A stretch of DNA of 64,000 nucleotides from positions 1-64,000 of the IMG/VR virus record IMGVR_UViG_3300019755_000002. One strand, 5' to 3'. Source of the stretch: a virus. The notes under the pieces were generated by a model that saw only the letters and a program-made list of their open reading frames with translations, searched no databases and had not been told where the DNA came from. The translations under genes were made by a program, and so were the position numbers. Positions 818 to 45,706 of this stretch are shown here, one piece after another. The first letter of the stretch is position 1, and each line of letters starts with the position of its first letter.

Positions 818-1504
818 TTAACTTCTATTAAAATGGTAGATTAACGCTTGCGTTAACACCATCATTCGGGTTGTCCCCATACGTCTAGCAACTTGGTACA
901 AAATATTGTTTATCGTCGAAGACACCCTTACTTTCATACTTTCTTTCTTTTGTTTATGTCGTTGGTGAAAGTAAAAACCCTCGACACTAATATCGACATC
1001 TTCGCCCGATAAACCATCTTGGACGTAATCTAAAATAATCTGACTAATTACTTCTACATTAAAAGGTCTATAAAAATCATGTCTATTCATTTCGGCAATT
1101 AAGGAAAAAGAAAACTCAAACCTTGGTATTTGTGCTGAGTTCGTTACTTCAAAAGTTTCTAAAGGTCGCTCCCATCGTAAAGGTAAATCTAAATAACCCT
1201 CTCCTCCAAGAACATTACCCATAAGATTAAGCAAATAACCACTAACAGACTGACCACGTTTACTGGCTTCTTTTTCATATCCTTTAAAGTTAGCCATCGG
1301 AAGATAATAGTTCTTACGCTTACCTTCCGAGTAGGGAACCGAAAGGGTACTTAAGTCAACCTCAGGGTATAACTCCGCCTGTGAAAGTGTTTTACGTATT
1401 TGCTCGGACATAGAAATAGCAGGGTAAATTTCAGCCAAAGCATCCACCAGTTTATGAGGCAAACAAAGGGTTACTTCCTTGGTGACTATTTTCGTTTCGG
1501 TCAT
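818..1504 (-). CDS. Protein with several ribbon-helix-helix-like segments
   Basis: 228 residues. At least three segments have the RHH pattern of a short beta strand followed by two helices: KEVTLCLPHKLVDAL with SEQIRKTL near the N-terminus, KNYYLPM with QSVSGYLLNLM near residues 65-95, and KVRVSSTINNILYQVARRMG at the C-terminus. RHH proteins bind DNA as transcriptional or partition regulators. It is transcribed away from the repeat-rich region at 2.7-4.2 kb, and a palindrome and T-tracts lie directly upstream (1.5-1.8 kb). It could be a repressor, copy-control or ParG-type centromere-binding protein. The RHH reading is by eye. Confidence 0.65.
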   Translation of the reverse strand: MTETKIVTKEVTLCLPHKLVDALAEIYPAISMSEQIRKTLSQAELYPEVDLSTLSVPYSEGKRKNYYLPMANFKGYEKEASKRGQSVSGYLLNLMGNVLGGEGYLDLPLRWERPLETFEVTNSAQIPRFEFSFSLIAEMNRHDFYRPFNVEVISQIILDYVQDGLSGEDVDISVEGFYFHQRHKQKKESMKVRVSSTINNILYQVARRMGTTRMMVLTQALIYHFNRS

Positions 1505-1768
1505 TAGGCCATATTTTGTAAGTGGGCGTGGTGCTTGGAGTGTATCACGGGGGGAACGTGGTTCAAAAATTTTTTCTCATTTTTAATTTTTTTTTATTTC
1601 GGGTTCTAGACCCGCCCCCACCAAAACGCCCTCAAACACTAGAAAAAGCCTCCCCCCCTTGCTATCATTTATCACAAGTCGAGGGCAATCAGCCCACGAC
1701 CACATCAACAACCTGGTGCTATTTTTACGCCCACGTTGTGCCCGTTGACCTGTGCAATTTTGCCTAAT
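1505..1768. other. Intergenic region with palindrome and T-tracts
   Basis: About 260 bp between divergent genes. It holds an 8-9 nt T-run region (about 1568-1598) and the palindrome CGGGTTCTAGACCCG at 1600-1614, possibly an operator for the RHH protein encoded just to the left. The open frame across this segment has low-complexity content and no ribosome-binding site, so no gene is called. Confidence 0.4.
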
Positions 1769-1772
1769 TAAC

Positions 1773-1824
1773 GGGTGGGGATATTTCCCCTCTTAATTAA
1801 ACTAAAATTTGGATTGACGATATT
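1773..1824 (+). promoter_or_regulatory. Hairpin + AT stretch + GGATTGACGAT box
   Basis: Hairpin GGGTGGGGATATTTCCCC at about 1773-1790, then TTAATTAAACTAAAATTT, then the box at 1811-1821. The box is separated from the ATG at 1825 by three bases, so its spacing to the start is one codon longer than in most copies. Confidence 0.7.
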
Positions 1825-2709
1825 ATGACTACATTAAAAGCTAGCTCAAAAAACACCCCTTTTAACGCCTCACGCCTTACTTTAGTAATGCAAGCAGGAT
1901 TACAAAATTCACGTAAAGGTGCCCTACAAAATGGCCTGTCTCTAGCCGCCTCAACACTTGTTAAGGGTGAACAATTAACCACTTTAGAAATGGCGCAATT
2001 ACTAGCGGATTGGAAAGGTGATATTGCACCCTCTAGAAAAAAGGGCGATGCCAACGAGAAGCGCTTAGGCGAATTGGTTAAAAAGTACATGCAAGATAGC
2101 CGTCTAGTGGCTAGTGCTGCGGAACACATAAGCGAGCCGATCAAGACTATGTTTACTAATCTGTACACTTTTGAAGATGCTGAGACTTTTGCTCTAGAAT
2201 CGGAAAAGGTGATCAAAAACATTAAGTTTTTAGAAGCTTTGGAAATTGAAAGTAAAACGGATTTAAATTGTTTTTGGTCGGGATTCTTACCAGAAACAAC
2301 CACAACCGAGGCCGAAGCCGTAGAAACGACCACAACCGAGGCCGAAGCAGTAGAAACGACCACAACCGAGGCCGAAGCCGTAGAAACGACCACAGCCGAG
2401 GCCGAAGCCGTAGAAACGACCACAGCCGAAGCCGTAGAAACATCAAAGGCGAAAACTAAGGTTAATAAAGATGAAATCAACAATAGACAAGCATTAGCTA
2501 ATGATGCCCTTGCCTTACTTGCAGATGAAATGCCCTTTTTAGATGCTTTACTTGCCACGGCTCAAAAGCAAGACACACAAGAGGGCGTGATCTTGACAAT
2601 ATGTCAAGGATTTAAAGCTGAGCTTGATAAAGTTAACGCTGAAAAGCTGGCTTTAGAGAATAAGCTTCACAACTTGACGCCAAAAGCCAAGGCCAAAAAA
2701 GCTGCATAA
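1825..2709 (+). CDS. Acidic repeat-containing protein, unknown function
   Basis: 294 residues. The N-terminal ~155 residues look folded. A linker at about 157-210 consists of nearly five 10-residue repeats of the type ETTTTEAEAV, then a Lys/Glu-rich helical C-terminus ending in a basic tail (KAKAKKAA). The repeat linker is acidic and Thr-rich, typical of an extended flexible tether. The start is the ATG after the conserved box. It is the last gene before the iteron-rich gap, so a role at a replication or partition locus is possible but unproved. Confidence 0.75.
   Translation: MTTLKASSKNTPFNASRLTLVMQAGLQNSRKGALQNGLSLAASTLVKGEQLTTLEMAQLLADWKGDIAPSRKKGDANEKRLGELVKKYMQDSRLVASAAEHISEPIKTMFTNLYTFEDAETFALESEKVIKNIKFLEALEIESKTDLNCFWSGFLPETTTTEAEAVETTTTEAEAVETTTTEAEAVETTTAEAEAVETTTAEAVETSKAKTKVNKDEINNRQALANDALALLADEMPFLDALLATAQKQDTQEGVILTICQGFKAELDKVNAEKLALENKLHNLTPKAKAKKAA
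2293..2436 (+). repeat. 30-bp in-frame tandem repeats
   Basis: Four full 30-bp units starting at 2293, 2323, 2353 and 2383 plus a 24-bp unit at 2413, coding ETTTTEAEAV-type decapeptides. Copies differ by only one or two bases, so copy number probably varies between isolates by slippage or recombination. Confidence 0.9.
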
Positions 2710-2742
2710 CAGCTAGCCACGTCCCAAGCCACAACATGAAGT

Positions 2743-2768
2743 AAAACCTAGCCCACGGGCTGGGTTTT
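2743..2768 (+). terminator. Rho-independent terminator
   Basis: AAAACCTAGCCC / GGGCTGGGTTTT, a 12-bp stem with one T-G pair and a two-base loop, followed by TTTTGTTG. An outer CCACAAC / GTTGTGG pair extends it. It lies 33 bp after the acidic repeat protein. Confidence 0.8.
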
Positions 2769-2796
2769 GTTGTGGGCGTTAATCAGGACACGTTCT

Positions 2797-3045
2797 CAGA
2801 CAGGTTTTTAATTTACGTTCGCGGTGGTGGGTAGAGTTCCCCACGGGGTAATGTTTCAATTATACCGCGAGGCTAAAAAACTGGGTGAAAAGTAAAATTT
2901 AGATTACAGACAGGTTTTTGAAAAGGGTGTCGGTGTTGGAAAAGTTCTCAGACAGGTTTTTGAAACAACCACGTTGACGGACAGGTTTTTAATCGTCAGA
3001 CACCTTTTTTAACAGTCAGACAAGATTTTGAAAAAGGTGTCTGAC
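2797..3045. repeat. CAGACAGGTTTTT direct repeats and 15-bp inverted repeat
   Basis: Copies of CAGACAGGTTTTT at 2797-2809, 2907-2919 and 2949-2961, a variant CGGACAGGTTTTT at 2978-2990, and degenerate copies near 2997 and 3015. The last ones lie in a perfect inverted repeat, GTCAGACACCTTTTT (2995-3009) with AAAAAGGTGTCTGAC (3031-3045). The arrangement resembles iterons plus an operator or origin hairpin. No Rep protein of a known iteron family is visible in the window. Confidence 0.75.
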
Positions 3046-3687
3046 AAGTCAAGGTTACATGTGGTCAAATAACAACCAAAAAATTAGAATCTATAGATTG
3101 AGATTTGCTTATTTCTTAAACGAATGTAGATTAAAAAACAAACAAAGCGAGCGTTTTTTTAGAAAACCTTAGTAGTGTGTATTTTTTGAACAAGAAAAAA
3201 AACAGAGGGTTAAAAAATAAGCAGTGAAAATTAGAGTTATTGCTCTAAGGACAACAAGACAAACCTAGACATAGAAGGACAAAGCCAGAAATTAGAGTAA
3301 TTACTCAGGACAGGTTATAGGTCTTAATGTCATTAATACCCTGTACCTGTCTAAGCTTTTTTTTTTCACTCCATTTACGGTGATCTTCCTATTTGCTCTT
3401 GTGTGGCGTTATTTTGGACGTTATTTTTCTTGTAGTAGGTGTACCTACAAAATCTATTTTAAGCCCGTTTCTGTTTTGATTTAACCCCTTAAATAGTGAA
3501 AACACCTGTGGATGTCGTCTTTATCTGTTTTAAAAACCACAACCACGGACACGACCACAAAAAAGGTTCTTTTGGAGGGTTGGAGTTGGTTATTTTTTAA
3601 CCTTTGAATCTAGACCTAAAAAATGACTTTTTTTTAGGACACCTTTTACAAGATCTAAAAATAGGTAGCGGACACGATTTCGCTACA

Positions 3688-3806
3688 CAACATATTATGT
3701 CAAGAACAGGGTTTTGATTGTCGGACATATTATGTCAAGAACATGGTTTTGATTGTCGGACATATTATGTCAAGAACCTAGTTCGATTGTATGACATATT
3801 ATGTCC
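3688..3806. repeat. Four 35-bp direct repeats with GACATATTATGTC core
   Basis: The palindromic core ACATATTATGT starts at 3690, 3725, 3760 and 3794 (spacing 35, 35 and 34 bp), each of the first three followed by CAAGAAC and a GTTTTGATTG-like tail. A related core, GACATAATATGTC, lies alone at 3925-3937. The period is close to 3.3 helical turns. This looks like a cooperative binding array for one dimeric protein. Confidence 0.85.
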
Positions 3807-4007
3807 CTTTTTTGATATTTTGGGCGTTAATGTTTATTTCATGGTTGATTGGCATAAAATTGTGGGCGTGAACGTTGATTTTTACCTATTTTTTATTCCT
3901 GTTTTGGGTTTTGGCGTGGCTGTTGACATAATATGTCACGGGTTTGGGTTGTATGCCTTTTTGAAATCCACGCCCTAAGCCAAAAATAAATGTTAACCAC
4001 GTCCAGA

Positions 4008-4116
4008 CCAGTGACCGAGCATCAAAATTATAACCCAAGGCAAAACACTGAAAATGGTTTTAGTGCCACGTCGAGGTAAAAAGCCTAAGCCTGCCAGTGA
4101 CCGAACATCAAAATTA
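4008..4116. repeat. 23-bp direct repeat pair
   Basis: CCAGTGACCGAGCATCAAAA-type sequence at 4008-4030, repeated at 4094-4116 with one mismatch (GAGC to GAAC). The copies are 86 bp apart and unrelated to the other two repeat families of this gap. Confidence 0.75.
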
Positions 4117-4225
4117 CTATTAAATTTTACGCCCCGACCCAACAGGGCAACAGAAATCTATTAATGATTAGTGCCCGACACCTTTTTAAGGGTTAGTTTC
4201 TGGTGCTAGCGATACTAAACCTACA

Positions 4226-4266
4226 AGGGGTAAGTTTCCCCACTTTAAAACTTGGAGATTGACGAC
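4226..4266 (+). promoter_or_regulatory. Hairpin + variant box GGAGATTGACGAC
   Basis: Hairpin GGGGTAAGTTTCCCC near 4227-4241, then a two-base-expanded variant of the box ending directly at the ATG of 4267. It carries a better Shine-Dalgarno core (GGAG) than the standard box. Confidence 0.6.
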
Positions 4267-4716
4267 ATGCTTTACTTTGCTAACCAGTTCACCCACGAAC
4301 AGTTTAACCGCATCCACCAAAAAGCGCTCAAAAGCGTAGAGGATATTTCGTCGTTGGAGAAAGAAAAGGCGTGGTTCTTAGGCCACTATCAAGAATCTAA
4401 AAAGGAGGCGGACTTAAAGCAGTACAAACAACGTACTGCGGAAATAGAAAAGCTACGTTGCTACGCCACTTGGTTGGACTACGTTAATCGTTGGATGACT
4501 ACCCTGGGTATAACCCAGTTATTTGCCTCAACTTTTGATATGGAAGAGGGCGAAGTAACAGAGTTCGCCCTCGTTCAGTACTCTCGCCCTTTTGATGAAT
4601 ATGGCTCACCAATTGCGGATGACAAAATATTCAAGTCTCAAACGGGCCGTAAAGCCCCATTTAAATTTAACGGCGCTTTTATAAACCATGGCCGACATTG
4701 GTCAGTTCATTCTTAA
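4267..4716 (+). CDS. Hypothetical protein
   Basis: 149 residues from the box-linked ATG; a TTG upstream in frame lies inside the box and is not used as the start. A charged helical stretch (residues about 25-60, with EKEKAWFLGHYQESKKEADLK-like composition) suggests a coiled coil, followed by a more mixed C-terminal part. First gene after the repeat-rich gap. No family recognised. Confidence 0.7.
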   Translation: MLYFANQFTHEQFNRIHQKALKSVEDISSLEKEKAWFLGHYQESKKEADLKQYKQRTAEIEKLRCYATWLDYVNRWMTTLGITQLFASTFDMEEGEVTEFALVQYSRPFDEYGSPIADDKIFKSQTGRKAPFKFNGAFINHGRHWSVHS

Positions 4717-5821: not shown

Positions 5822-6195
5822 TGTCTATATTGATCACGATGGTTCTAGTTTGGCTTATGTGTCTTTTGGTGTTTGTTTTTAGGGTTAAGATTTTTGCTTT
5901 ATTTTCCAAGCCTGAGTATCTTGTTTTAGGTGAGAAAATAACTTGTTTACGATTGCAAATGTTGGCTAAACCTATTGCAGACAGGTACGAGGATTTAAAA
6001 GAAATTTCTATTCTTGAAGATAGATATTCTTTTTTAGTTGCGAAAAAAAGCGAAGTGCATTTAGTTAAAAAAAACGTGTTCCCTGTCGAAGGAAAAGTTA
6101 TCCCGCTAAGAGGGGAAACAACCCCACCAACAGCCACAATACCACATCGAGTTAACAAGCCGCACGTTGTTGATTACAAACAGTATCAGAAATAA
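5821..6195 (+). CDS. Single-pass membrane protein, unknown
   Basis: 124 residues. One N-terminal membrane segment (about residues 3-22, ITMVLVWLMCLLVFVFRV) and a cytoplasmic-type charged tail. It is coupled to the preceding membrane protein by a one-base overlap. Its last 44 bases overlap the 3' end of the repressor gene on the opposite strand, so the two transcripts converge. Confidence 0.65.
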   Translation: MSILITMVLVWLMCLLVFVFRVKIFALFSKPEYLVLGEKITCLRLQMLAKPIADRYEDLKEISILEDRYSFLVAKKSEVHLVKKNVFPVEGKVIPLRGETTPPTATIPHRVNKPHVVDYKQYQK

Positions 6196-6550
6196 TGCGT
6201 GCTGCAGTGGAAATATCAGGGTATTTAATCTCTAAAAGCTTGAGATCATAAGCTTTAAATAAACCCTCTTCAATTAAAGGGGTTAAGACTTGGGTTTCAG
6301 AGTTATCTTCCTTCAATAACAAAAGGTTATCGAGGCAGACATTAAAACTCAAGGCGCAAGTGATAGCCATATCTAGAACAGGCTTTAATGTCCCTCGGCT
6401 TACAATGGTATTAATTGTCCCTTGTGGAAACCCGTAAGTTTCATCTAAGGAACTAATACGCTTGTAGCCATGGAGTCTAGAGATTTTTTCAAGTACCTTA
6501 CGTACCCAAATTTTCTTTTCTTCTGGAGATTTAGATTCAAAAAATAACAT
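6152..6550 (-). CDS. CI-type phage repressor (N-terminal HTH domain)
   Basis: 132 residues from the ATG at 6550. Residues about 14-75 match the pattern of the phage CI repressor N-terminal domain: a first helix (VRKVLEKISRLHGYKRISSL), then an HTH with GFPQGTINTIVSRGTLKP, then a helix ending in NVCLDNLLL, the position where many CI proteins have LDWLL. The remaining ~55 residues are too short for a LexA/CI-type autoprotease domain. The only minus-strand gene in the early region, it faces an AT-rich segment with inverted operator-like sites at 6658-6716. Likely the lysogeny repressor. A longer TTG start at 6634 is possible but lacks a ribosome-binding site. Confidence 0.65.
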   Translation of the reverse strand: MLFFESKSPEEKKIWVRKVLEKISRLHGYKRISSLDETYGFPQGTINTIVSRGTLKPVLDMAITCALSFNVCLDNLLLLKEDNSETQVLTPLIEEGLFKAYDLKLLEIKYPDISTAARIISDTVCNQQRAAC

Positions 6551-6657
6551 TATGAGATATTCGCTTTTGTCGTGTAGGAGATAGACAAAGAATACACAAG
6601 GAAAAGGAGTATTTCCAGTGCCAACCAGAGACAAAGACAGACATTTTAGTACAAAAT

Positions 6658-9900: not shown

Positions 9901-9962
9901 AAGGTGGGTAAAGTTACCCACCTTTAAAGAGACAGAATTAAACTAAAATTTGGAGATTGACG
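9901..9962 (+). promoter_or_regulatory. GTGGGTAA hairpin + TTAAACTAAAATTT + box
   Basis: 11-bp perfect stem AAGGTGGGTAA / TTACCCACCTT (9901-9924, loop of two), AT stretch, and a box in which the final GAT is fused to the start: ATTGACGATG. Confidence 0.75.
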
Positions 9963-10349
9963 ATGGAACTTACCATAGATCAACAACGAACAAATCTTTT
10001 CAATCAACTAGGCGCGTTCTTCGCCTTTAATAATGCTCAGTTTGCCGAAAAGCAACAAGAAAACACCACCTATGTGACTATGGGCGCGGGTTTAATTTGC
10101 CCTAAAGAAAATGCGTCGGAGCTTGTTGACGGTTTAGAAAAGTTAAGTAACGAGAGCATACGCTTAGACCTAGCCAACAACACCATTAAAGAAATTATTC
10201 ATCGTGAGCTGGCCAACCATGAAGCCCAAATCACAGGCGATATTTCTGACACGGTTGATGCTCTTGATGGTTATCCGATAACAGTCGAGCAGATACAGGC
10301 TGAGTATTCTGTTTTCTTTCAAAAGTGTGTTGACAACGACTGGTTTTAA
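9963..10349 (+). CDS. Hypothetical protein
   Basis: 128 residues from the box-fused ATG. Mostly helical, with acidic patches. The C-terminal part (IEHRELANHEAQITGDISDT-like and a final SVFFQKCVDNDWF) shows no known motif. It is followed 13 bp later by the next gene. Function unknown. Confidence 0.65.
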   Translation: MELTIDQQRTNLFNQLGAFFAFNNAQFAEKQQENTTYVTMGAGLICPKENASELVDGLEKLSNESIRLDLANNTIKEIIHRELANHEAQITGDISDTVDALDGYPITVEQIQAEYSVFFQKCVDNDWF

Positions 10350-11815: not shown

Positions 11816-12136
11816 ATGAAAGTAACCATACATCAAAAAATACGCCTTAGAAGCCTTATGTTGCAGTACGGTATAAACATCAATGGGTACCTGAAGTGGG
11901 TAAACACCAATGACGTACTGACAAGAAAGGCATCTAGACGACGCATAGCTTTTTTTATCTATTCTTACACAGGACAAAGTGTCATGTTTGTTTTAAATAG
12001 TCCGTATACAAGATATTACAAGCCTCATAGATCAACCCTTAGGGACGGTGAACCTAGACAGCCTAGTAATACAAACCGAGTGGGTAACTTTACCCACCAA
12101 AAATTAATTAAACTAAAATTAGGATTGACGATATGA
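11816..12136 (+). CDS. Hypothetical basic protein
   Basis: 106 residues, strongly basic and Arg/Tyr-rich (KIRLRSLMLQYG, RKASRRRIAFFIYSY), suggesting nucleic-acid contact. The upstream sequence has a weak GGAACTAAACC ribosome-binding site. Its last 70 codons run over the hairpin and box of the next gene, ending at that gene's ATG, so the true coding end is less certain. Confidence 0.4.
   Translation: MKVTIHQKIRLRSLMLQYGININGYLKWVNTNDVLTRKASRRRIAFFIYSYTGQSVMFVLNSPYTRYYKPHRSTLRDGEPRQPSNTNRVGNFTHQKLIKLKLGLTI
12080..12132 (+). promoter_or_regulatory. GTGGGTAA hairpin + TTAAACTAAAATTA + box
   Basis: Stem GTGGGTAA (12080-12087) / TTACCCAC (12090-12097), then the AT stretch and a perfect AGGATTGACGAT directly before the ATG at 12133. 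This is one of the canonical copies. Confidence 0.75.
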
Positions 12137-13935: not shown

Positions 13936-13983
13936 ATGGTGGGTAAACTTCCCCACCATTAAACTAAAATTAGGATTGACGAT
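13936..13983 (+). promoter_or_regulatory. Hairpin + TTAAACTAAAATTA + box
   Basis: Stem ATGGTGGG / CCCACCAT (13936-13943 and 13952-13959) followed at once by the AT stretch and a perfect box before ATG 13984. Confidence 0.75.
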
Positions 13984-15522
13984 ATGAAACAGAACAACTT
14001 TGGATTACTCTCAGGCGAAATTAGCGTAGACAACTTCGCTGGTGGTGGAGGTGCTAGCACGGGGTATGAAATGGCTACGGGCAAATCCGTAGACATAGCC
14101 ATTAACCACGACCCTGACGCCATTGACATGCACAGACTTAACCATCCAGACACCAAGCATTACTGTGAAGATGTTTGGCATGTTGACCCTATTGAAGCTT
14201 GTGCGGGTCGTCCCGTTGGGGTGGCGTGGTTTAGCCCAGACTGTAAGCATTTTTCCAAAGCCAAAGGATCGGCACCAGTAGATAAAAATATTAGAGGTCT
14301 TGCTTGGGTTGCTATTCGTTGGCCCTTACTCGTGCCCGTTAGAACGTTATACCTAGAAAATGTCGAAGAATTCAAAACGTGGGGGCCAGTTATCTACAAT
14401 GATAAAGGTAAGCCTATCCCTTGCCCTGAACGCAAGGGTGAGACCTTTGATGGCTTCATCAAAGCCTTAACAACAGGTCTAAAGCCCGACCATCCCGCAT
14501 GGGTGGAAGCGGTTGAAGCCCTACAAATTGAGGATAAACCCGAGTTACAACAACGGTTACAAACGGGATTAGGCTATGACCTTGAACACCGTATACTACA
14601 TGCTTGTGATTATGGTGCAGCTACAATTCGTAAACGTTTTTTCTTAGTTGCTCGCAATGATGGCCTGAAAATAGGTTGGCCCGAAATTACACACGGTAAA
14701 GTAGGAAGCGGCTTGAAACCTTTTGTAACAGCGGCAGAAGTGATTGATTGGTCAAAGCCTTGTCGATCAATCTTTGGTAGAAAAAAGCCCTTAGCTGAAA
14801 AGACGATGGCGCGTATCGCTAAGGGATTAGAAAAATTTGTGTTCAACAGCGTTAACCCTTTTGTGGTTCCTGAGGAATGCGTCGTCCCGTTTATAACCGA
14901 ACATGCCAACGGTTCAAGCCAGCGGAATATGCCTATAACAGAGCCGCTGAGAACTATTTGTGCACAAGTTAAGGGGGGGCATTTTGCTTTAGTTAATGCT
15001 TACATTGCTAAACACTATACGGGTGTTGACGGTTCAGATATTAAGACACCACTACACACAATAACAACGCAGGATCACAACGCGTTAGTAACAAGTCACA
15101 TGATTAAGTTTAGGGACACAAACGTTGGGCATGAAACACGAGAGTCATTGCATACAATCTCGGCGGGTGATAATCATTTAGGAGAAGTACGAGCTTTCTT
15201 TATACAGTACTACGGTGAAAGTGTTGGTCATGAGATAAATAGACCCTTAGGTACAATCACAACAAAAGATAGATTCGCATTAATAACCATTCGCGGTGAA
15301 CAGTATCAAATTGTAGACATTGGTATGCGAATGCTTGAACCAGAAGAATTATTTGCCGCCCAAAGTTTCCCTGAGGATTATCAAATTGCTTATGACATGA
15401 ATGGTAAAAAAATATCTAAAGCGCGTCAGGTATCTCGTTGTGGTAATTCCGTCCCCCCTTTGGTTGCTAAAGAACTTATTTTAGCAAATCTTAGCGACCA
15501 ACCTATGAAGGAGGCAGCATAA
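13984..15522 (+). CDS. C5 cytosine DNA methyltransferase
   Basis: 512 residues. Motif I at about 17-28 (NFAGGGGASTGY) binds SAM; the catalytic loop reads SPDCKHFSKAKG at about 84-95 instead of the usual PCQ, a form common in phage Dcm-like enzymes; motif VI ENVEEF is at about 125; a C-terminal motif IX/X region (RQVSRCGNSVPP) closes the fold. The target recognition domain lies between. The enzyme would methylate cytosines to evade host restriction. No cognate nuclease is present. Its stop overlaps the next start by one base. Confidence 0.9.
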   Translation: MKQNNFGLLSGEISVDNFAGGGGASTGYEMATGKSVDIAINHDPDAIDMHRLNHPDTKHYCEDVWHVDPIEACAGRPVGVAWFSPDCKHFSKAKGSAPVDKNIRGLAWVAIRWPLLVPVRTLYLENVEEFKTWGPVIYNDKGKPIPCPERKGETFDGFIKALTTGLKPDHPAWVEAVEALQIEDKPELQQRLQTGLGYDLEHRILHACDYGAATIRKRFFLVARNDGLKIGWPEITHGKVGSGLKPFVTAAEVIDWSKPCRSIFGRKKPLAEKTMARIAKGLEKFVFNSVNPFVVPEECVVPFITEHANGSSQRNMPITEPLRTICAQVKGGHFALVNAYIAKHYTGVDGSDIKTPLHTITTQDHNALVTSHMIKFRDTNVGHETRESLHTISAGDNHLGEVRAFFIQYYGESVGHEINRPLGTITTKDRFALITIRGEQYQIVDIGMRMLEPEELFAAQSFPEDYQIAYDMNGKKISKARQVSRCGNSVPPLVAKELILANLSDQPMKEAA

Positions 15523-20230: not shown

Positions 20231-21334
20231 ATGAGTGAATTTACATATACTTTTGGCGCTATATTAGGCCAGCAAAATGGTCGCCCCTTTTATCAAGCTA
20301 CAGTGCCTTTTAGAACGTTAGCTTCAATGCTGAAACTTGACGAGGATTTTGACGTCAATAAACGCTCTCAGCGCTTGGTTGATACTACCAGAGCCAAAAA
20401 AGTAGCTAAATATTTACATAAGAATATAAATGGCTTTTTTGTAATTCCTCCGCTTGTCGGTTTTATTGAGGGGGATTTTGAATTTGAGTCTGTGCCGATT
20501 GATGGGTTTGGTAACGTTGGTCGAATGAAAGTTGATTTGGATGCTAGATTTATGTTGTTTGATGGCCAGCACAGAGCTTTTGGTATACGGGAGGCAATGG
20601 CGTTAGCCCCTGAACTTGGCCAGCAAAACGTGTCGATTATGTTCTTTGCGGGCATGAGCTTAAGTGAAAGACAACAAGCTTTCCACGACATTAATTTCAC
20701 TCAAAAAACACCCGCCGCAGCACTTTGCATTGCTTACAATAGTCGTAGTGACTTTGACAAGATGGTTACAGACACATTCAGCAAATCCAGTATCAGAGGT
20801 ATTATTGAATATGAAAAGAATACCGCTAGCGGCAAAAGCAATAAAATATATTCACTCAAAACATTAAAAGATTTTGCTACAAACTTTTGCGGTAAAGATA
20901 TTCAAGAAAATACGCAACAACTATTAGCTGAGTATATTAAGGGCTTATTTACAACAGTTAATATACCTGCTCATTTATCTAGAATTGAAGCTGATAGAAG
21001 GGAGTTATTAAGGCACGGTTTTGTTTGCGCTAAGTATTACCGTGAAAACTATATATTACCTCATGCGGTAACACTGAAAGCATTAGGTTTGCTAGGTAGA
21101 GCTTTACTTAGCGAACACCCATACGATTGGCATCAAAAGCTAGAGGCTATTGGTAATATAAGCGTATTCGATAAACATGCTGAGCATTGGCTTGGCCGTT
21201 GCGTTAATGAACGTGAAAAAATGGTTAGTAACCAATTAGCCGTTCGTCTGACTTTTTACAAACTAAAAGAACTCTGCGGTTTAGCGCTAGCACCCGAAGA
21301 AAAAGTAGAAGAAGGTGTTTTCAGTACAAATTAA
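20231..21334 (+). CDS. DGQHR-domain protein (DndB-like)
   Basis: 367 residues. The signature LFDGQHRAFGIREAM at about 109-123 defines the DGQHR domain found in DndB, the regulator of DNA phosphorothioation gene clusters, and in related proteins of DNA-modification islands. Preceding SQRLVDTTRAKKVAKYL and following FAGMSLSERQQAFHDIN fit the family. No other dnd or dpd gene is seen. In the phage it could repress or interfere with host phosphorothioate or deazaguanine modification systems, or regulate phage genes; this is inference. Confidence 0.8.
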   Translation: MSEFTYTFGAILGQQNGRPFYQATVPFRTLASMLKLDEDFDVNKRSQRLVDTTRAKKVAKYLHKNINGFFVIPPLVGFIEGDFEFESVPIDGFGNVGRMKVDLDARFMLFDGQHRAFGIREAMALAPELGQQNVSIMFFAGMSLSERQQAFHDINFTQKTPAAALCIAYNSRSDFDKMVTDTFSKSSIRGIIEYEKNTASGKSNKIYSLKTLKDFATNFCGKDIQENTQQLLAEYIKGLFTTVNIPAHLSRIEADRRELLRHGFVCAKYYRENYILPHAVTLKALGLLGRALLSEHPYDWHQKLEAIGNISVFDKHAEHWLGRCVNEREKMVSNQLAVRLTFYKLKELCGLALAPEEKVEEGVFSTN

Positions 21335-24761: not shown

Positions 24762-25556
24762 ATGCCTTTAAAACTTATTGATGGTAACAACCGCTTTCGT
24801 GCTCGATGGGAAAAGTTAGGCCCAAATGCACTATCCATTCTTTACAACGAATCAATCACCCACATGCCAAACCACACACTTATTTGGGTTTGGGATGGAG
24901 AAAATGGCGCTGGGCCAAGGCGCGAAATCTTCCCGATGTATAAAGGCGGAAGAAAGCCTGGCTCAGACCAATTTCATGAAACAATGGCTTTATTTCAAGA
25001 CCTTCTTCAACATTCTAACTGTCTTCAATTAGCCGTACCTGGTGTTGAGGCCGACGATGTTATTGCTTGTCTTGCTCAAGGGTCAAGTGATGTCATAGAA
25101 ATAGACTCAAATGATGCCGACTTCTTAGCGCTGGTTTCAGAGCGTATAACGGTTAACCGTGAACCTATTGCGGGTGTTATCCCCGACTATGTTCACCTTT
25201 ACAAGACGCTCGTTGGTGACAAATCAGATAACGTCAAAGGACTGCCCTCTTTTGGCGCGGGAACGTGGGGTAAGCTTGAGGATTCAGAACGGATATTACT
25301 GATCAAACACTTTACGGGTGAAAGCCGACTAACGGGTGAAGACTGTTCAGAGCTTTTTGGTTGGGGTAAAGCCCTTTGCTCGAAATGGGAGGATAACTTA
25401 GCCGATTTAGATGTGGCATGGAAAATAACCGATTTTTTCCCTGTCGATAGCCGCCTGATTAGCGAACACTTAAAGGCTGGGGTATTAAATATGGACGCAG
25501 CTAACGCCCTACTAGCACCGTTATTATTTACGATGGATCATGAAAAGGTCGCCTAA
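24762..25556 (+). CDS. 5'-3' exonuclease (PIN/flap type)
   Basis: 264 residues. FDGEN-like start (WVWDGENGAGPRR, about 41-53), the acidic cluster VEADDVIACL at about 95-104 and DSNDADFLAL at about 115-124, and the helix-three-turn-helix segment VGDKSDNVKGLP at about 150-161 give the full set of the RNase H/T5 D15 family. It removes RNA primers and processes flaps in replication. The polymerase gene follows immediately. Confidence 0.9.
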   Translation: MPLKLIDGNNRFRARWEKLGPNALSILYNESITHMPNHTLIWVWDGENGAGPRREIFPMYKGGRKPGSDQFHETMALFQDLLQHSNCLQLAVPGVEADDVIACLAQGSSDVIEIDSNDADFLALVSERITVNREPIAGVIPDYVHLYKTLVGDKSDNVKGLPSFGAGTWGKLEDSERILLIKHFTGESRLTGEDCSELFGWGKALCSKWEDNLADLDVAWKITDFFPVDSRLISEHLKAGVLNMDAANALLAPLLFTMDHEKVA

Positions 25557-25557
25557 T

Positions 25558-28389
25558 ATGTTAGAACTTTTTAACGAACAAACGGGTATTACCGAAGTCC
25601 TAGTTGATGCCCGTAACTTTAACAACATAATTCCACAATTAATCACGCAAATTCAACAATCGACATCACCTTATGTCGGGTTTGATATTGAAACAGAAGA
25701 TAGTGGTCGTCATGCGGGACTTAACAAGTTCATGGCAATGAAGAAAGGCGACCAAAAGTATAAGAAAGCCAAAAAGCTCGTCTTTGATTTAAATAGAACA
25801 GTAATTACGGGGTTTTCTATTTACTTAGACAACGACAGCCGAGATTACTACTTTAACATGGCTCATGCCGACGTTGAGAACCGATTAGAATGGCAAACGG
25901 TGTTACCTTTACTTGGAACCATTAAAGCGACAAAAACGTGGGTGATACATAATGCCGCGTTTGAACTTGCTCAGTGCAATGGAACGTGGAAATTTGACCT
26001 AGGCCACAACTACATTTGTACCATGCAACTCTGTGTTAGTGCCTACAACTCAGACGAGTATGACATTCAGAAGTTTCACGAAGCGGGTCTTGGTGGTATT
26101 GCTAAGTTAATCCCCGAAATTACGAAAACTTTTGCGGGTTATGAGCCTAGACAACGTATGACAACACAACAAAACGAGTTGTTACAACGTTGTGTGCCAA
26201 AGCAATCAGCACCAGAGCATAGTTATAACGGCTGGGTAAGAGAGCTTAGCTATGGCTATGGTCTGAAAAAAGCCGTTAAATCTTGGTTTGGGTATGAACA
26301 GCAAGAATTTGAAACGGTTCTTCAAGGACGTGCTCACATGGGCTTGTTGACGGGTGAAGAAGTTTTACACTACGGCGCTGACGATGCCTACTGGTGTTTG
26401 AAGCTTATGCACCGTGTTATTGCTTTTATGCAAGAGACTAACCCGCAAGTTATCAACACGTTTTTTGAACAAGAAAACCCAATGCCACGCATATGGGCAG
26501 ATAATTGGTTACGCGGAATACGTCTTAACTATGAGCAATTAGAGTATCGTAGAACCGAGGCAAGAAACAACTTTGCCAACATCCTACGTGACTTTATTAA
26601 AGCTTTACAGCAAATAGCTTTCGCGGATAAACCCGCAGAACGTTTAGTCCAAAAGCAAATGAAATGGTACATAGGTAAAGATGAAGACCAACCAAAGTAC
26701 TTAGAATACCGTGAACGCTATCAAGCTATTGCCTCAGTAGATGCCGATAGCCTAAGCGACTATGACGTTTGCCAGTTGGTTTCAGGTTCCGTTCCAGAAA
26801 ACTGGGCAACGGAACGAGGTGAAAAGGTAAACAAGAACAAAGGCAACATTACCCATTACATGATGGCTCGAGTACTGTTCCATGATTTGTTAGATTTACC
26901 GCTTATCTACGTAAAAGGTGCTATTCAATCGGGAGGTGATGCCCGAGGTAAGCTTAAAGAAAAAATAGAGTTATTAAGTACTGAGCCTAAAGAGTGGCTA
27001 AAAGAATGGGGGCGATACAAATGTCATACCGAACTTAGTGACCAAGAGCGTCAAGCATTGGCTGAGAAGAAGGTAGCGGAATACCCACGACAAGCGGCGG
27101 AAACGATTTTAAATTGTTTAGGTAAGATGGCTACCGTTGAACAGGTAATGAAGCTTTACCTTAATTCTTATTTAATGTTAGTAGACCCTGAAACTAAGCG
27201 TATTTATCCCACAATTAGTTCTAGGTTAAATACCCGCCGTATGGGGTGTGAAAACCCTAACGGTATGCAACTAAGTAAACGCGGGGAAACAACTTATGTT
27301 AGGGGTTTCTTTTTACCCGAACGTGATGATCACCTAATTGTTTCAGTGGATTGGTCTCAGGTAGAACTGGTCCTAATTGGTGAAGACTCTAAAGACCCAA
27401 CCTTTGGTAAAGCTTACGGTCAAATACCTTATGATGATTTACATTTAGATGCCGCAGCGTCAGCAGTACGAGTGTTTCATCCTGACTTTACCAACTTACA
27501 TCTAAAAGAGTTACCTAAAATGGTAGAAGCGGATATCACTTCGTTCAGCATTGAGTTTCCACAGGTGTTAATGAATCCAGTAAAAAAAGAAACAATGACA
27601 CCTAAAGCGGCACATAAATTTTGGCGCGGTACTGCAGGTAAGGTTTCAAACTTTGGTTATTGGTATTCAGGGTCGTTGATGACGGTGCAACCTGGTCTAG
27701 GTTGGACGGATAAGCAAATGTGGGACGCTACGGATAATTATCGTAAACAATTTCCCGTTGCTGAAGCATGGAGAATACGAACCCAAAACGAAGCCAAGAT
27801 GTATGGGTGTGTTTACATTCTTGATGGTCATCGTAGAACACGTTACGAGTCAACCCAATACTGGTATAACGCTATGGTAGCCAAGTTTGCCAGCTATGGT
27901 AATGCGGCAGTTACGGCCTTTGGTCAAAGAGTTTGTTCCACCATTCAACGTAGAGCAGCAAATCAAGCCGTTAATGCCAAAATCCAAGGTGGTTGTGCCA
28001 CATTAGCTAAGCGTTCAATTCTACGCTTAGTACGTTGTATCAAATCCGAAGGTTGGGATGCCGTGTTTTACATGCCCATACACGATGAATTAGTTTTCTC
28101 GGTTCGTTGGGATCAAGCCATAGCATTTAGCAAGCGCGTTAAAGAAATTATGTGTCATCATCCTGATTTGGTTCAATGGCTGAAACTTGATGGCACTGTT
28201 TCCGTGGGTAAAACGCTAGAGCCTTATGACAAGGACAAAGCACCCCTAGGTCAAATTGAACTTGACGAAGCACCACTATTACCCGAGTACTTGCCAAAAG
28301 ATACCGAAGGCAAAGCCCTAGACGATAATCAGCGCATGAACGTGGTTAATTATCTTATGGGGTTAACACCTATGACGGACGCGGCCTAA
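25558..28389 (+). CDS. Family A DNA polymerase
   Basis: 943 residues from ATG 25558. N-terminal 3'-5' exonuclease: FDIETE (exo I, about 42-47), HNAAFELAQ (exo II, about 131), YGADDAYW (exo III, about 270). Polymerase domain: motif A VDWSQVELVLIGE (about 597), motif B region KVSNFGYWYSG (about 695), motif C HDELVF (about 842). A large insertion separates exo and polymerase domains. This is the replicative enzyme. Start and previous stop are separated by one base; the following gene overlaps by one base. Confidence 0.95.
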   Translation: MLELFNEQTGITEVLVDARNFNNIIPQLITQIQQSTSPYVGFDIETEDSGRHAGLNKFMAMKKGDQKYKKAKKLVFDLNRTVITGFSIYLDNDSRDYYFNMAHADVENRLEWQTVLPLLGTIKATKTWVIHNAAFELAQCNGTWKFDLGHNYICTMQLCVSAYNSDEYDIQKFHEAGLGGIAKLIPEITKTFAGYEPRQRMTTQQNELLQRCVPKQSAPEHSYNGWVRELSYGYGLKKAVKSWFGYEQQEFETVLQGRAHMGLLTGEEVLHYGADDAYWCLKLMHRVIAFMQETNPQVINTFFEQENPMPRIWADNWLRGIRLNYEQLEYRRTEARNNFANILRDFIKALQQIAFADKPAERLVQKQMKWYIGKDEDQPKYLEYRERYQAIASVDADSLSDYDVCQLVSGSVPENWATERGEKVNKNKGNITHYMMARVLFHDLLDLPLIYVKGAIQSGGDARGKLKEKIELLSTEPKEWLKEWGRYKCHTELSDQERQALAEKKVAEYPRQAAETILNCLGKMATVEQVMKLYLNSYLMLVDPETKRIYPTISSRLNTRRMGCENPNGMQLSKRGETTYVRGFFLPERDDHLIVSVDWSQVELVLIGEDSKDPTFGKAYGQIPYDDLHLDAAASAVRVFHPDFTNLHLKELPKMVEADITSFSIEFPQVLMNPVKKETMTPKAAHKFWRGTAGKVSNFGYWYSGSLMTVQPGLGWTDKQMWDATDNYRKQFPVAEAWRIRTQNEAKMYGCVYILDGHRRTRYESTQYWYNAMVAKFASYGNAAVTAFGQRVCSTIQRRAANQAVNAKIQGGCATLAKRSILRLVRCIKSEGWDAVFYMPIHDELVFSVRWDQAIAFSKRVKEIMCHHPDLVQWLKLDGTVSVGKTLEPYDKDKAPLGQIELDEAPLLPEYLPKDTEGKALDDNQRMNVVNYLMGLTPMTDAA

Positions 28390-30795: not shown

Positions 30796-30813
30796 GAAAC
30801 TAACTCAAAAATT

Positions 30814-30827
30814 TGGATGGATTGACG
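30814..30827 (+). promoter_or_regulatory. Box with GTG start
   Basis: TTTGGATGGATTGACG followed by GTG at 30828, aligned exactly with copies in which ATG follows ATTGACG. Confidence 0.6.
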
Positions 30828-33800
30828 GTGGCCGACATGATCCCACAAGTATCATTAAGTATAATTACTAAACCAAGCGGAATACTAACTAAAAAACTAA
30901 GTGTTCAACAAGGTCGAGTAATAAGTGACTCTAGTGAATGTAGAATTAGTTCCGCTGTAGCGAATAGAATAACGCTACCGTTTGACCAAGTTCCACAATT
31001 ACTTAAAGAGTTGGGCAACAATCAATGTTGTGCGACGGGATGGGCGAACACCGACCACACCCAAGTTGAGTTAATGTCGCGAGACAAATTTGAGTCTAAG
31101 CATTACCAATTCCCCGTGCAAGAGTTACCGCACGGGGTTTATGCTACCAGAACACTAGACTCGTTTACTCAAAAAGGGCAAAGTCTAATCATGTTTGATT
31201 ACGACGACGATGAGGCTTGTCCGTATAAAATTAACTGCCCCGAGCAATTTATAGAATTACTATCACAAGTAATCCCAGACTTTAACAAAACCACCTATAT
31301 CCGAACATTTTCAACCTCGTCGGGTGTTTATGACCGCACAACAGGGGTTTGCCTAAAAGAAGCCGCAGGTTTTCATCTATGGATGGTTGTACCCGATGGT
31401 AGTGATATTCAACGATTTGGTGAAGTGTTAGAAAAAAGACTCTGGTTAGCTGGTCTAGGCTATATCAAAGTTTCGACTAAGAATGCCAACCTAAATATCC
31501 GTACTGTAATTGATACGGCGGTATTTAGTCCTGAAAGGCTGGTATTTGAAGCGGGGGCGGTTATTAGTGATGAAAGTATCGAACAACGGCTACCATCCCC
31601 TGAGTATAATGCCAAGCAATATAATTTACTTGATACCAAGAGACTACCTAACTTAAGTGATTTAGAGGAAAAGTCTTATCAAACGGCTATTTTAAATGCG
31701 AAACTAGCCGATCACGTTGTCAAAACAAAAAACGAAATTAAACAACGCATAGCCGACGATTTTGTTGTTAAAGCACAAATGGCGGGTAGAATAATTCCGC
31801 GTTCACAAGCAATGAGAATGGTAGAAAATTTAGAAAGGCATATTCTCCCACCATTTCATATTATTTATTTCGCCGACGGTTCACAAGCGACGGTAATGGA
31901 TATTGTTGCTAACCCCATGGCTTTCGATGGTCGTGAATGTTTAGACCCCATTCGAGAAGATAAGGGTCATGGACGCTCAAAAATCTTCGCTAATTTAGAC
32001 CAAGCCGTACCTAAACCACAAATACACTCTTTTGTTGAAGGTGGGCGTAACTTTGATTTAATGGCTTCTATGAAGTTATTACACGTAAAAACGGTTGACG
32101 AAGAATTTACCGCCTTGCGTGATTTAGTCACTACATACCAAAGTCAGGATAGTGAATACTTCAAAGCAATTGAACTTAAACCAGGTATTAATCTGATTAA
32201 AGGTGAAAAAGGCACGGGTAAAACCTTCACTATTGCAGAAACAATAAGAGCAACAGAATTAAGTGTTCTGGGGATTACCCCTCGAATCGGTTTAACTGAA
32301 ACGGTTTCAGACGACTTTGGCTTATCTTGTTATAACGACGAAAAATTTAAAGAAAGCCACGTTCTAAGGTCACAAAAACGATTAGCTATATGTTATGACT
32401 CTATACATAAGATTGCAGGACAGTATTTTGATATCGTTGTCATAGATGAAATTATTCAAGTTATGCGACACGTTAAATCCAGTTCGGTTAAATTTAAATT
32501 TGTTTGTTTAAATGTTCTCAGGTCTTTAATCTTAAACGCTAGATACGTTGTTATGATGGATGCCGATATCAGCGCGGATTATCTTGGTTTACTTAGAGAC
32601 CCAGATTTGGGCTGCTGTAAACAAAACGTAGACATAAATCTAATCCTTAATCATTACAAACCCGCTCAACGTCAGGGTAGAAAAATTTACAATTACATTG
32701 ACCTTGAAGATAAAGCCGATGAAGAAGCTTGGGGAATAAATTTACTTGAGTACGTGAAAGATAAGGGTACCTTTATTGCCACAAATGCTAGAACACAGGC
32801 ATACAATGTTGCCAATGAAGTTCTCGAATCTTGGGGTTTAAATGTTACCCTAGAACAAGGACATTTTATTACTGAAGTTAATGGTCGTCGTGTTATAACC
32901 ATAACCTCAGACAACTCGGGTTTGTCGGAAGTAGCGCAATTTGTAAGTAATATTAATAAAAATCTCAGGCCGACGGACGTTTTTATTTCTTCACCAAGCT
33001 TAGGTACAGGTGTCTCAGTTAATAAACGTGAAGGTAAGCCTGTATTTGAACGTGTTTATTGTCGCTTCACTAAACGAGCGGGTAACACCTCAGCCGATTG
33101 CTCTCAACATATTGCACGAATCCGTGGTTGTACCGAGTTTCACAACATCATTATTGATACGTTGGAGTGGCAAGAAACTGACCCAGAATTAATCGTAGCG
33201 CAAGAAATTTATGGTCGAGTTAAAGCTGTGGATGGCTATGTTCGTAGTAATGATTTGAACTTTGACCCCTACATGAATAAATACGTTTTTGCGGATAATA
33301 ATTGGGGACAGTGGTTTGGTTTAATGGTTAGTTTTGAAAACCTTGATCGTAATGAATTTGGCTTAAACTTCTTAACGCGATTAGAGCAAGAGGGGTATAC
33401 CATTGAGACAGTTAAATCGGAAATAGCCCCTGAAGCAAGGACTAAAAAGCATGAACAAACTAAGCGTGTAAAAACGAAACAGAAGGAGTTAGAAACACAA
33501 CTAACAGTTGATTCCCCATTATTAACAGATGAAGAAAAAGCGGAGTTAGATGCAAAGTCTCAGTTAACAGTAGATGAAAAACGTCAAATGCTAAAACGTA
33601 GCACTGCCGATGCCTTTGGTGAATACAACCAAGACGGATTGGAAGGTTTACTACGCCTGAGTAAAGCAGCATTAAAGTATCGTCGTTCAGGTTTATATTT
33701 TGGTATGAATAGCGAAACGTTGTTGTTAACCGATTTAAGTAATCGACTTGATCACGAAAAAATGCATATTGAAAAAACAGTACATTACCCCCGTTGGTCG

Positions 33801-34310
33801 CTAATGATATCCTTAGCAAGCATTTTAGGTATAACGTTAGATAATGATAAACTTCCCCATTCAAACGGTGCGGTTATCAATGATGGTGTAAAAGTGGCTT
33901 TTTACAATCGCCTTCGAGAAGAAAAAGAGGACGTAAAAACACTTTTAGGTATTAATGTTGGTTACCATAAAGAAATGCACGGCATTAGTACCGTGGTTGG
34001 TAACGCGGCTAAAGCCATGGGACTAAAACTTATTCGTAAATCGCATAAAGGCCCAAATGGTGAAATAAAAGTCCGTGTAGTCTGTCAAGAATCCTTAGCT
34101 ACTCTTCGCAGCGATATACTACGAGCTAGAGCATACAGCCCATCACCATTACACACAACACTAGCAGAGCCACCACATTCGCTAGTTAACTATGTTGCTC
34201 AGTATAATGCTGGAATGCCTGAAAGAGCACCTAGAGAACATCGATACTTATCTCAGCTTAATGACTATGAATTTGACTTACTTCACAAATTTATTAAACG
34301 AGTGGTATGA
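30828..34310 (+). CDS. Primase-helicase with origin-binding-protein-like helicase domain
   Basis: 1160 residues starting at the box-aligned GTG (alternative ATG at 30837). The N-terminal part carries MFDYDDDEACP at about 120-130, an acidic cluster like the active site of archaeo-eukaryotic primases, followed by YIRTFSTSSGVYD. The second half is a superfamily 2-like helicase: Walker A GEKGTGKT at about 458, motif II VVIDEI at about 537, and motif VI QHIARIRGC at about 762, resembling the herpes origin-binding-protein group. It likely primes and opens the phage origin; the best replication-initiator candidate in the window. Confidence 0.75.
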   Translation: MADMIPQVSLSIITKPSGILTKKLSVQQGRVISDSSECRISSAVANRITLPFDQVPQLLKELGNNQCCATGWANTDHTQVELMSRDKFESKHYQFPVQELPHGVYATRTLDSFTQKGQSLIMFDYDDDEACPYKINCPEQFIELLSQVIPDFNKTTYIRTFSTSSGVYDRTTGVCLKEAAGFHLWMVVPDGSDIQRFGEVLEKRLWLAGLGYIKVSTKNANLNIRTVIDTAVFSPERLVFEAGAVISDESIEQRLPSPEYNAKQYNLLDTKRLPNLSDLEEKSYQTAILNAKLADHVVKTKNEIKQRIADDFVVKAQMAGRIIPRSQAMRMVENLERHILPPFHIIYFADGSQATVMDIVANPMAFDGRECLDPIREDKGHGRSKIFANLDQAVPKPQIHSFVEGGRNFDLMASMKLLHVKTVDEEFTALRDLVTTYQSQDSEYFKAIELKPGINLIKGEKGTGKTFTIAETIRATELSVLGITPRIGLTETVSDDFGLSCYNDEKFKESHVLRSQKRLAICYDSIHKIAGQYFDIVVIDEIIQVMRHVKSSSVKFKFVCLNVLRSLILNARYVVMMDADISADYLGLLRDPDLGCCKQNVDINLILNHYKPAQRQGRKIYNYIDLEDKADEEAWGINLLEYVKDKGTFIATNARTQAYNVANEVLESWGLNVTLEQGHFITEVNGRRVITITSDNSGLSEVAQFVSNINKNLRPTDVFISSPSLGTGVSVNKREGKPVFERVYCRFTKRAGNTSADCSQHIARIRGCTEFHNIIIDTLEWQETDPELIVAQEIYGRVKAVDGYVRSNDLNFDPYMNKYVFADNNWGQWFGLMVSFENLDRNEFGLNFLTRLEQEGYTIETVKSEIAPEARTKKHEQTKRVKTKQKELETQLTVDSPLLTDEEKAELDAKSQLTVDEKRQMLKRSTADAFGEYNQDGLEGLLRLSKAALKYRRSGLYFGMNSETLLLTDLSNRLDHEKMHIEKTVHYPRWSLMISLASILGITLDNDKLPHSNGAVINDGVKVAFYNRLREEKEDVKTLLGINVGYHKEMHGISTVVGNAAKAMGLKLIRKSHKGPNGEIKVRVVCQESLATLRSDILRARAYSPSPLHTTLAEPPHSLVNYVAQYNAGMPERAPREHRYLSQLNDYEFDLLHKFIKRVV

Positions 34311-35340: not shown

Positions 35341-36420
35341 ATGAAAACATTCATAATGCCCGAGGGCAGCCGAGTTATAAACTTCCCTTTATCTTCTTTA
35401 GGGCCAAACTCCACCTTAGATAAATACCTTCAACATTGCTATATTCTTGGAGACCCACATTTAGGTCGTAAATTCAAAACGGGGGTTCCTATTCATCGTC
35501 TTGGTGATCGTGAACAAGCCGTCAAAGTTGATTTTCAAGAAAGTCTTATTGGCCTTAAACCAGGTAGAAAATTCCACGTTTGTATGGGGGACTTGTTTGA
35601 TAAGTTTACCGTACCAAATGAATGGGTAGAATTCGCTTATCAAACATACCGTGAAGCAGCGTTAAAGTTCCCTGCAGTGACGTTCATTGTTATTCAAGGA
35701 AACCATGACGCATCAAAAGATAAATCTAAAGTAAGTTCTTTTGAAATATTCGCTGAGCTTTGTAAGCCAATAAGCAACATTAAAGTGCTAACGGAACACC
35801 CAATATTTATCCCACACGATCAATTAAACTTTCTATTCGTTCCGTGGACTCCTTTTAAAACAACGTCTGAACTCTTAGCTTTAGAATTTCCACTATTAAA
35901 CAAAGTTAAAAATTCACCCTTTGTAGCTTTCGGCCATTGGGACACAAAAAGCCACGGTGAAGATATTTGTGAGAACATCATCCCTCACGACCATTTTACT
36001 CGTGATTGCTGTGACGGGGTGGTTACTGGTCATTATCATAAACCCGAAAGAACTATGTTAAAGAAAATTGAATTGTTTGTTACTGGGTCAATGCAGCCAT
36101 ACGCACATGGTGAAGAAGCCGACGACGTAGATAATCCTATGTACGTTACTGACACTAAAGCAAACGTCGAAGCAAAACTTATTGAAGACGAAACCTTTTA
36201 TAAAAACAAAGTGCTTAGGGTATTGGTTGAACAAGACGACACACCGTTAGCGGGTATTGATTGCTATGCACTCACCCACAAAAAGACCGCGCCGTTAGGA
36301 GAAGAAAACGACGTGGACGTGGAAATTGACGACTTTGATATTAAGGGGTTATTCAACAGCGTAATGACAGAAAAAGGCGTTTCCTCTGAACTAACGCAAG
36401 AACTATGGGCTAAATTATGA
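35341..36420 (+). CDS. sbcD: SbcD/Mre11-like nuclease subunit
   Basis: 359 residues. The calcineurin-like phosphoesterase motifs are complete: GDPHLGR at about 37, GDLFDK at about 83, GNHDAS at about 120, and GHYHKPE at about 230. It forms a complex with the Rad50-like product of the next gene (T5 D12/D13 are phage equivalents) that cuts hairpins and processes ends in recombination-dependent replication. The stop overlaps the SbcC start (ATGA). Confidence 0.9.
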   Translation: MKTFIMPEGSRVINFPLSSLGPNSTLDKYLQHCYILGDPHLGRKFKTGVPIHRLGDREQAVKVDFQESLIGLKPGRKFHVCMGDLFDKFTVPNEWVEFAYQTYREAALKFPAVTFIVIQGNHDASKDKSKVSSFEIFAELCKPISNIKVLTEHPIFIPHDQLNFLFVPWTPFKTTSELLALEFPLLNKVKNSPFVAFGHWDTKSHGEDICENIIPHDHFTRDCCDGVVTGHYHKPERTMLKKIELFVTGSMQPYAHGEEADDVDNPMYVTDTKANVEAKLIEDETFYKNKVLRVLVEQDDTPLAGIDCYALTHKKTAPLGEENDVDVEIDDFDIKGLFNSVMTEKGVSSELTQELWAKL

Positions 36421-44975: not shown

Positions 44976-45385
44976 GTATAGCTCCTAGAGAGAAATTGTG
45001 TACATATTTTCTCAATATTTCAGTTTAATAGTACCAAGATAAAAATATGTACATGGATATGTACACATATTTGTTGGCTGCAAGTGACCTAGTATGTCTT
45101 AATTTGACAGCCTTGAAAAGCACCTTTAGCCTAAGCCGCATAGATACTAGATTAAAGTTTTGTCCTGATGTGTCTTGATGTGTCGAAACAATACCATAGT
45201 CTCCACATGCTTTGTTTGAGAAAACATATTGCGAACACTTAAGGTATTGAATTAAAAACAAATAATAAAAAGCAATATTTGGAACTTTAAAAATATGTAC
45301 CTGATTCTGTACACTTTTCTAAAAGTGTCCCCTGAATCTTGCGTTTAGGTTTAAAACACTTTTCTAATATTACGCTATTTTAAAT
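44976..45385. promoter_or_regulatory. Candidate attP region
   Basis: About 410 bp gene-free between the integrase and lysis genes. Repeated inverted and direct copies of TGTACATATTT-type sequence: 44998-45010, 45042-45072 (AAAATATGTACAT and ATATGTACACATATTT), and AAATATGTAC near 45291-45300. These are candidate integrase arm sites or operators. No tRNA end or core duplication can be identified from the window alone, so the core is not placed. Confidence 0.55.
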
Positions 45386-45413
45386 AGAGAAAAAAGAAAG
45401 CTCTTTTTTCTCT
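45386..45413 (-). terminator. Late-operon terminator
   Basis: AGAGAAAAAAGA / TCTTTTTTCTCT, perfect 12-bp stem with a 4-nt loop, six bases after the Rz1-like stop (minus strand). Ends the lysis and tail transcript; the long A and T arms can terminate in both directions. Confidence 0.85.
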
Positions 45414-45418
45414 ACATG

Positions 45419-45706
45419 TTATTTTGCTTGATTTCGGATATAAGCTGCCGCAGACGACATTTTAGAGGCGCAAAGGTGATAGCGATTATTGTTCCTAATT
45501 GTGACACCCAGCATATCCCTAAAATCGTTACTGTTATAAGTTAATAATGGTAAACACTCCGTAGTTATACTACTCGGTGGCTGCACTTGTAACTTTGGAA
45601 GACTCAGTTCGGTTGGGGCTACGGTTATTGATGGAGTCGTTGAGCAACCTAATAGCGTCGTCACTAACAATAGCACACTCAGGTTCAACTTTAATTTTAT
45701 CAACAT
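45419..45706 (-). CDS. Outer-membrane spanin (Rz1-like lipoprotein)
   Basis: 95 residues. N-terminal signal with lipobox LLLVTTLLGC (cysteine at about 21) followed by a Pro-containing segment (TTPSITVAPTELSLPKLQVQPP), typical of Rz1 o-spanins. It is encoded in another frame and overlaps the end of the Rz-like gene by about 137 bases, as in lambda. It would fuse the inner and outer membranes at lysis with its partner. Confidence 0.8.
   Translation of the reverse strand: MLIKLKLNLSVLLLVTTLLGCSTTPSITVAPTELSLPKLQVQPPSSITTECLPLLTYNSNDFRDMLGVTIRNNNRYHLCASKMSSAAAYIRNQAK

Follow-up and report, generated by a model that had tools for sequence, protein, structure and literature searches.

Does the gene-free gap of this phage, in which short direct repeats run into an inverted repeat, start replication, control transcription, mark an end of the virion DNA or maintain the prophage as a plasmid? 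The window analyzed in our study was the whole stretch of 64,000 nucleotides, which represents bases 1–64000 of a 78,716-base IMG/VR record. The first and last 123 bases of this record were found to be identical; therefore, the genome is a closed one of 78,593 bp, and it belongs to a 78.6-kb temperate siphophage. The phage encodes a terminase of the GpA type and a DNA polymerase (DNA polymerase A, 25540–28389), and reading of the ORFs revealed tail genes of the lambda type. The nearest named relative, and the sole close one, was Pseudoalteromonas phage KB12-38 (MF098558, 78,271 bp), which forms a subfamily-level cluster with nine uncultivated genomes (PMC10232697). The gene order was shared between the two phages, and the identities were 65% for the primase-helicase, 64% for the polymerase, 63% for the terminase, and 47% for TerS. 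Searches for similar DNA among phages and plasmids gave no match to 1500–4400, and scans of IMG/VR with single proteins, as well as a scan with the primase-helicase alignment, gave none.

The gap extends from 2710 to 4263 (1.55 kb) and contains the repeat array. The first-pass annotation had described an iteron array that ends in a perfect 15-bp inverted repeat, and both elements were found to be real. Three exact copies of CAGACAGGTTTTT were present on the plus strand at 2797–2809, 2907–2919, and 2949–2961, followed by a near-exact copy with one mismatch (CGGACAGGTTTTT, 2978–2990, plus strand). Two weaker plus-strand copies, each with two mismatches, completed the set within 2797–3029: CAGACACCTTTTT at 2997–3009 is part of the left arm of the inverted repeat, and CAGACAAGATTTT at 3017–3029 is located in its loop. 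A further two-mismatch match was found on the minus strand at 3031–3043. The copies were irregularly spaced. When at most one mismatch was allowed, the sites at 2797, 2907, 2949, and 2978 were the only ones in the whole 78,716-base record, and the reversed CAGACAGGTTTTT pattern, used as a control, had zero matches there at the same threshold. At three mismatches, the 64-kb window contained 27 matches against 31.6 expected by chance, which is no excess; the evidence for the array is therefore the strong copies and their clustering. The shorter word GACAGGT occurred six times in the gap, where 0.15 copies were expected and 2000 shuffles gave a maximum of three. The inverted repeat covers 2995–3045, with arms at 2995–3009 and 3031–3045 and a spacer of 21 bp, and 100 shuffles reached at most 12 bp. 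The extent assigned earlier (2797–3045) was too narrow, as core copies were also found at 3308 (plus strand) and 3345 (minus strand) and the conserved architecture of the gap extends to about 3430. Clustered copies of a short repeat in non-coding DNA are one of the marks of an iteron origin, and they were found here. The Rfam search gave nothing above the gathering score. The matches returned by DNA-pattern scans for the array were unrelated coding sequence and one unrelated enterobacterial prophage, and they were rejected.

Beyond the iterons, the gap contained an AT-rich stretch, a dyad block, and a shared 21-mer. The AT-rich stretch (3067–3216) is 75% AT and stands at the 99.98th percentile among the 150-bp windows of the genome; its counterpart in KB12-38 (35680–35829) has the highest AT content of any 150-bp window there. 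By its composition it is a candidate DNA-unwinding element, and such a neighboring region is another mark of an iteron origin. The conserved dyad block (3304–3353) is composed of the core GACAGGTTAT (3309–3318, plus strand), TTAATGTCATTAA, and the reverse core ACCTGTC (3345–3351), and the dyad AATGTCATTAATA was conserved in the gaps of both phages. In pairwise comparison the block aligned without gaps to KB12-38 35794–35843 (E 4e-6). The 21-mer CGTTATTTTGGACGTTATTTT (3407–3427, plus strand) was identical at 21 of 21 positions to KB12-38 36071–36091; the longest word shared in 1000 shuffles had 20 letters and appeared once. In both gaps the AT-rich stretch comes first, followed by the dyad block and then by the 21-mer. 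Two copies of CCAGTGACCGARCATCAAAATTA were located further downstream at 4008–4116 on the plus strand. Weak matches resembling the 21-mer on E. coli phage-plasmids had E values of at least 5 and were taken as chance.

Is the array conserved? The first-pass annotation had made its reading depend on conservation in relatives, and conservation was found in one relative, KB12-38, so that repeats kept at the same place, a third mark of iteron origins, are documented for this pair. KB12-38 contained a gap of 1.76 kb at the same syntenic place, flanked by the 294-aa gene's homologue and the early operon. Over 1.3 kb of this gap, GGACAGG appeared 15 times, in either orientation, and KB12-38's own iterons formed a perfect 14-bp inverted repeat, whereas shuffles reached at most 10 bp. 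A profile built from the KB12-38 sites alone had its four best matches in the 78.6-kb genome all within 2794–3321, with the dyad block at 3304–3353 as the top match of the whole genome. In the reverse direction, 12 of the 16 best matches in KB12-38 were located inside its gap. The two phages thus resemble each other in gene order, gap position, the GACAGGTT core, the perfect inverted repeat, the AT-rich stretch, the dyad block, and the 21-mer. They differ in the layout of the copies, which in our phage lie mainly in one orientation within 230 bp, and in the position of the inverted repeat within the gap. KB12-38 also has four tandem 12-mers where the studied phage has one 21-mer, and its gap is devoid of the ACATAWTATGT palindromes described below.

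On these sequence features, we consider with modest confidence that the gap at 2710–4263, chiefly 2797–3430, is the replication origin region of this temperate siphophage. The origin proposed in the first-pass annotation therefore stands as the best, though putative, reading, on the conservation in KB12-38 and the origin-like anatomy. An initiator, probably coded by the phage, would bind the GACAGGTT iterons and the dyad and would melt the AT-rich stretch, and the phage's own replisome, with the primase-helicase (30813–34310) and the DNA polymerase, would be loaded at the gap. By analogy with known iteron origins, the repeats, the AT-rich stretch, and the dyad may together provide what an initiator-controlled origin needs; the binding, the melting, the start of replication, and the identity of the initiator are what we infer. 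The reading is favored by a full replication set in both phages, including a primase-helicase of the ori-binding type, and by the motif core being kept while the proteins flanking it are only 26–31% identical. Several observations count against it. Iteron initiators are usually encoded beside their origin, and here the array and the gene for the candidate initiator are 27 kb apart. The spacing of the copies follows no regular pattern. No Rep_3 initiator match was found in the record, the motif was present in one close relative only, and the gap of a more distant genome, G002, contained repeats of a different sequence.

The GC skew suggested by the first-pass annotation as a check was computed and proved uninformative. 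The minimum of the cumulative skew was near 2.0 kb in our phage and at 35.05 kb in KB12-38, beside the gap in both, where the genes also reverse their direction. When third codon positions and fourfold sites were considered, neither phage had a negative-to-positive switch of top-strand skew at the gap. The whole-genome skew was therefore regarded as an effect of coding direction and was not counted, and its minimum was dropped as an origin signal; the degenerate-site skew, which lacks the sign of a fork origin at the gap, speaks against an origin. A limited search of the open-access literature gave no mapped origin for the group of KB12-38, JWF, Seuss, and TCUP2199, some members of which have been investigated for possible therapeutic use. 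The conserved candidate origin, with its defined boxes, would offer an entry to the start of replication in these phages. The array is ordinary in kind and is useful as a test object.

Which protein reads the repeats? The 294-aa gene (P294; 1825–2709, plus strand) adjoins the array and has a 31% identical homologue at the same place in KB12-38. The 228-aa protein that had been called RHH (818–1504, minus strand) is 26% identical in KB12-38 and had no Pfam or PHROG match. Both adjoin the repeats, a recognized initiator domain was found in neither, and their AlphaFold models were of low confidence (mean pLDDT 40 for P294 and 32 for the RHH candidate). The 1165-aa primase-helicase (Herpes_ori_bp; N15 RepA/CyRepA1-like; plus strand) shared about 22% identity with N15 RepA/CyRepA1 over half its length and is a candidate initiator, or else the helicase loaded at the origin. 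A kept motif core fits a well-conserved reader better, which slightly favors the replication machinery over the RHH candidate and P294. The proposal that the repeats form an autoregulated operator of the RHH protein lost ground, because GACAGG was absent upstream of its gene, both at 1505–1824 and in the KB12-38 counterpart, and because this protein is only 26% identical while the core is kept. In distant relatives, homology of the small proteins neighboring the gap was not demonstrable for the P294 and RHH families; P294 and its counterpart in G002 reached an hhalign probability of only 5%.

Other repeated elements were noted in the genome. The 294-aa gene contained in-frame tandem repeats at 2281–2446, which encode a linker rich in Thr, Glu, and Ala, and a 183-aa gene of the structural region contained in-frame tandem repeats (Ala/Glu/Lys) at about 70785–71060 of the genome. 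Many genes begin with ATTAAACTAAAATTNGGATTGACGATATG after a palindrome such as GTGGGTAANNTTACCCAC, for example at 1780–1827, 9920–9965, 12100–12135, and 13950–13986. KB12-38 has the same gene-start sequence with its own palindrome, CGGGGTAACGTTACCCCG, and G003, G007, and G008 have yet other palindromes. This element resembles the SAS/ESAS elements of the cluster K mycobacteriophages (PMC3203893). A DndB-family protein was encoded at 20231–21334, with no other Dnd proteins noted; its KB12-38 homologue is 45% identical.

The same gap could be explained otherwise. It precedes the early operon, whose start is at 4264, and the array might serve transcriptional control, as operators of a phage regulator over early promoters with palindromes as repressor sites. 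Five ACATAWTATGT(C) palindromes at 3690–3937, four of them on a period of about 35 bp, are candidate repressor operators, and the gene for an HTH repressor-like protein has a counterpart in KB12-38 at 40% identity. We regard this explanation as unlikely, since the palindromes are missing from the KB12-38 gap and the GACAGGTT copies are not associated with promoter-like sites (8 found against 5.6 expected), with no copy upstream of the RHH gene. Moreover, an array of 1.3–1.8 kb and an extreme AT-rich stretch are required neither by promoters nor by operators. No further copy of the palindromes was present in the genome, and the HTH protein at 6152–6634 may use them as operators. Slightly less probable still is that the gap is a terminus of the virion DNA, at the edge of a direct terminal repeat, where the terminase would read the repeats for cutting and concatemer processing. 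Repeat arrays near genome ends are known from T7, and the terminal repeats of the more distant relatives Lumi, Seuss, and JWF are found at this genomic place. Near a 21-bp repeat pair, the edge of the Lumi repeat falls inside a long gene-free gap that separates the early operon from the gene in the P294 position. Its terminal repeats were determined as 2298 bp by PhageTerm (PMC9959647), whereas Seuss has an annotated repeat of 1748 bp at the same position and JWF has identical ends of 1466 bp; the 123 identical end bases of our record are typical of circular assembly. However, the termini of the studied phage and KB12-38 would be placed here by synteny with these three phages, the JWF repeat includes little gene-free DNA, and the fifteen KB12-38 copies in both orientations over 1.3 kb are unlike compact pac or cos sites. 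The AT-rich stretch and the dyad are also left unexplained. The origin and terminus readings are mutually compatible, and the terminal repeat of the studied phage may include the array or lie close to it.

Maintenance of the prophage as a plasmid, with the array as iteron origin and/or centromere, is very improbable. The primase-helicase is related to the plasmid proteins N15 RepA and CyRepA1, and a distant family member was deposited as the 85.7-kb Methylobacterium plasmid pMaq22A_3p, so that a plasmid state is possible for the family. That plasmid (NZ_AP014707.1) is a full phage genome of the wider family, its terminase is 38.5% identical to that of the studied phage, and integrase annotation is absent from it. 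A phage-plasmid is expected to carry a partition ATPase or plasmid initiator, and to lack an integrase or to have a protelomerase instead. Our phage was found to possess a tyrosine integrase with an arm-binding domain (Arm-DNA-bind_3/Phage_integrase, P4-type), with repeated ATGTACA-type sites adjoining it, and the record had no match to ParA (PF13614), Rep_3 (PF01051), or a protelomerase. Mystique, which is predicted to be virulent (PMC12013898), is also repeat-rich at that place. The plasmid state put forward in the first-pass annotation is therefore unsupported for this phage, and the combination of an iteron array with an integrase is not enough to infer a phage-plasmid. The ATGTACA-type repeats (44976–45570) are likely attP arm sites for the integrase.

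Across the family, the position of the gap is kept and the repeats change. In G002, whose primase-helicase is 50% identical, a 264-aa gene and a gap of roughly 1 kb were found at the same place, with repeats of its own that include a 40-bp pair containing TTTGGACG; in Mystique the place is occupied by GGCCGTGAAAGT repeats together with long inverted repeats. It is a tentative and rather doubtful proposal that in siphophages of about 77–85 kb one fixed gene-free locus joins the origin and the virion-DNA terminus, with recognition repeats that turn over quickly. Each lineage would then have its own set: GACAGGTT in our phage and KB12-38, TCAGACCC-like repeats in G002, and GGCCGTGAAAGT in Mystique. 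The origin candidate thereby also bears on whether the origin and the packaging end share a locus.

Compared with known systems, the candidate origin is similar to each in part. The terminal repeats of JWF, Seuss, and Lumi occupy the same place, with terminase-side genes on one side and early genes on the other, but their sequence is unrelated to the array, and those phages lack the RHH gene and have a P4-type primase. The N15 RepA and CyRepA1 replicons have a related primase-helicase. The N15 origin is located within repA, whereas the array of the studied phage is far from the primase-helicase gene and its record has no protelomerase match. From the iteron origins of theta plasmids and lambda-type phages (Rep_3/RepA, lambda O), the locus differs in having irregular spacing, no Rep_3-type initiator, and a replication protein encoded 27 kb away, while it shares with them the arrangement of short repeats beside an AT-rich stretch.
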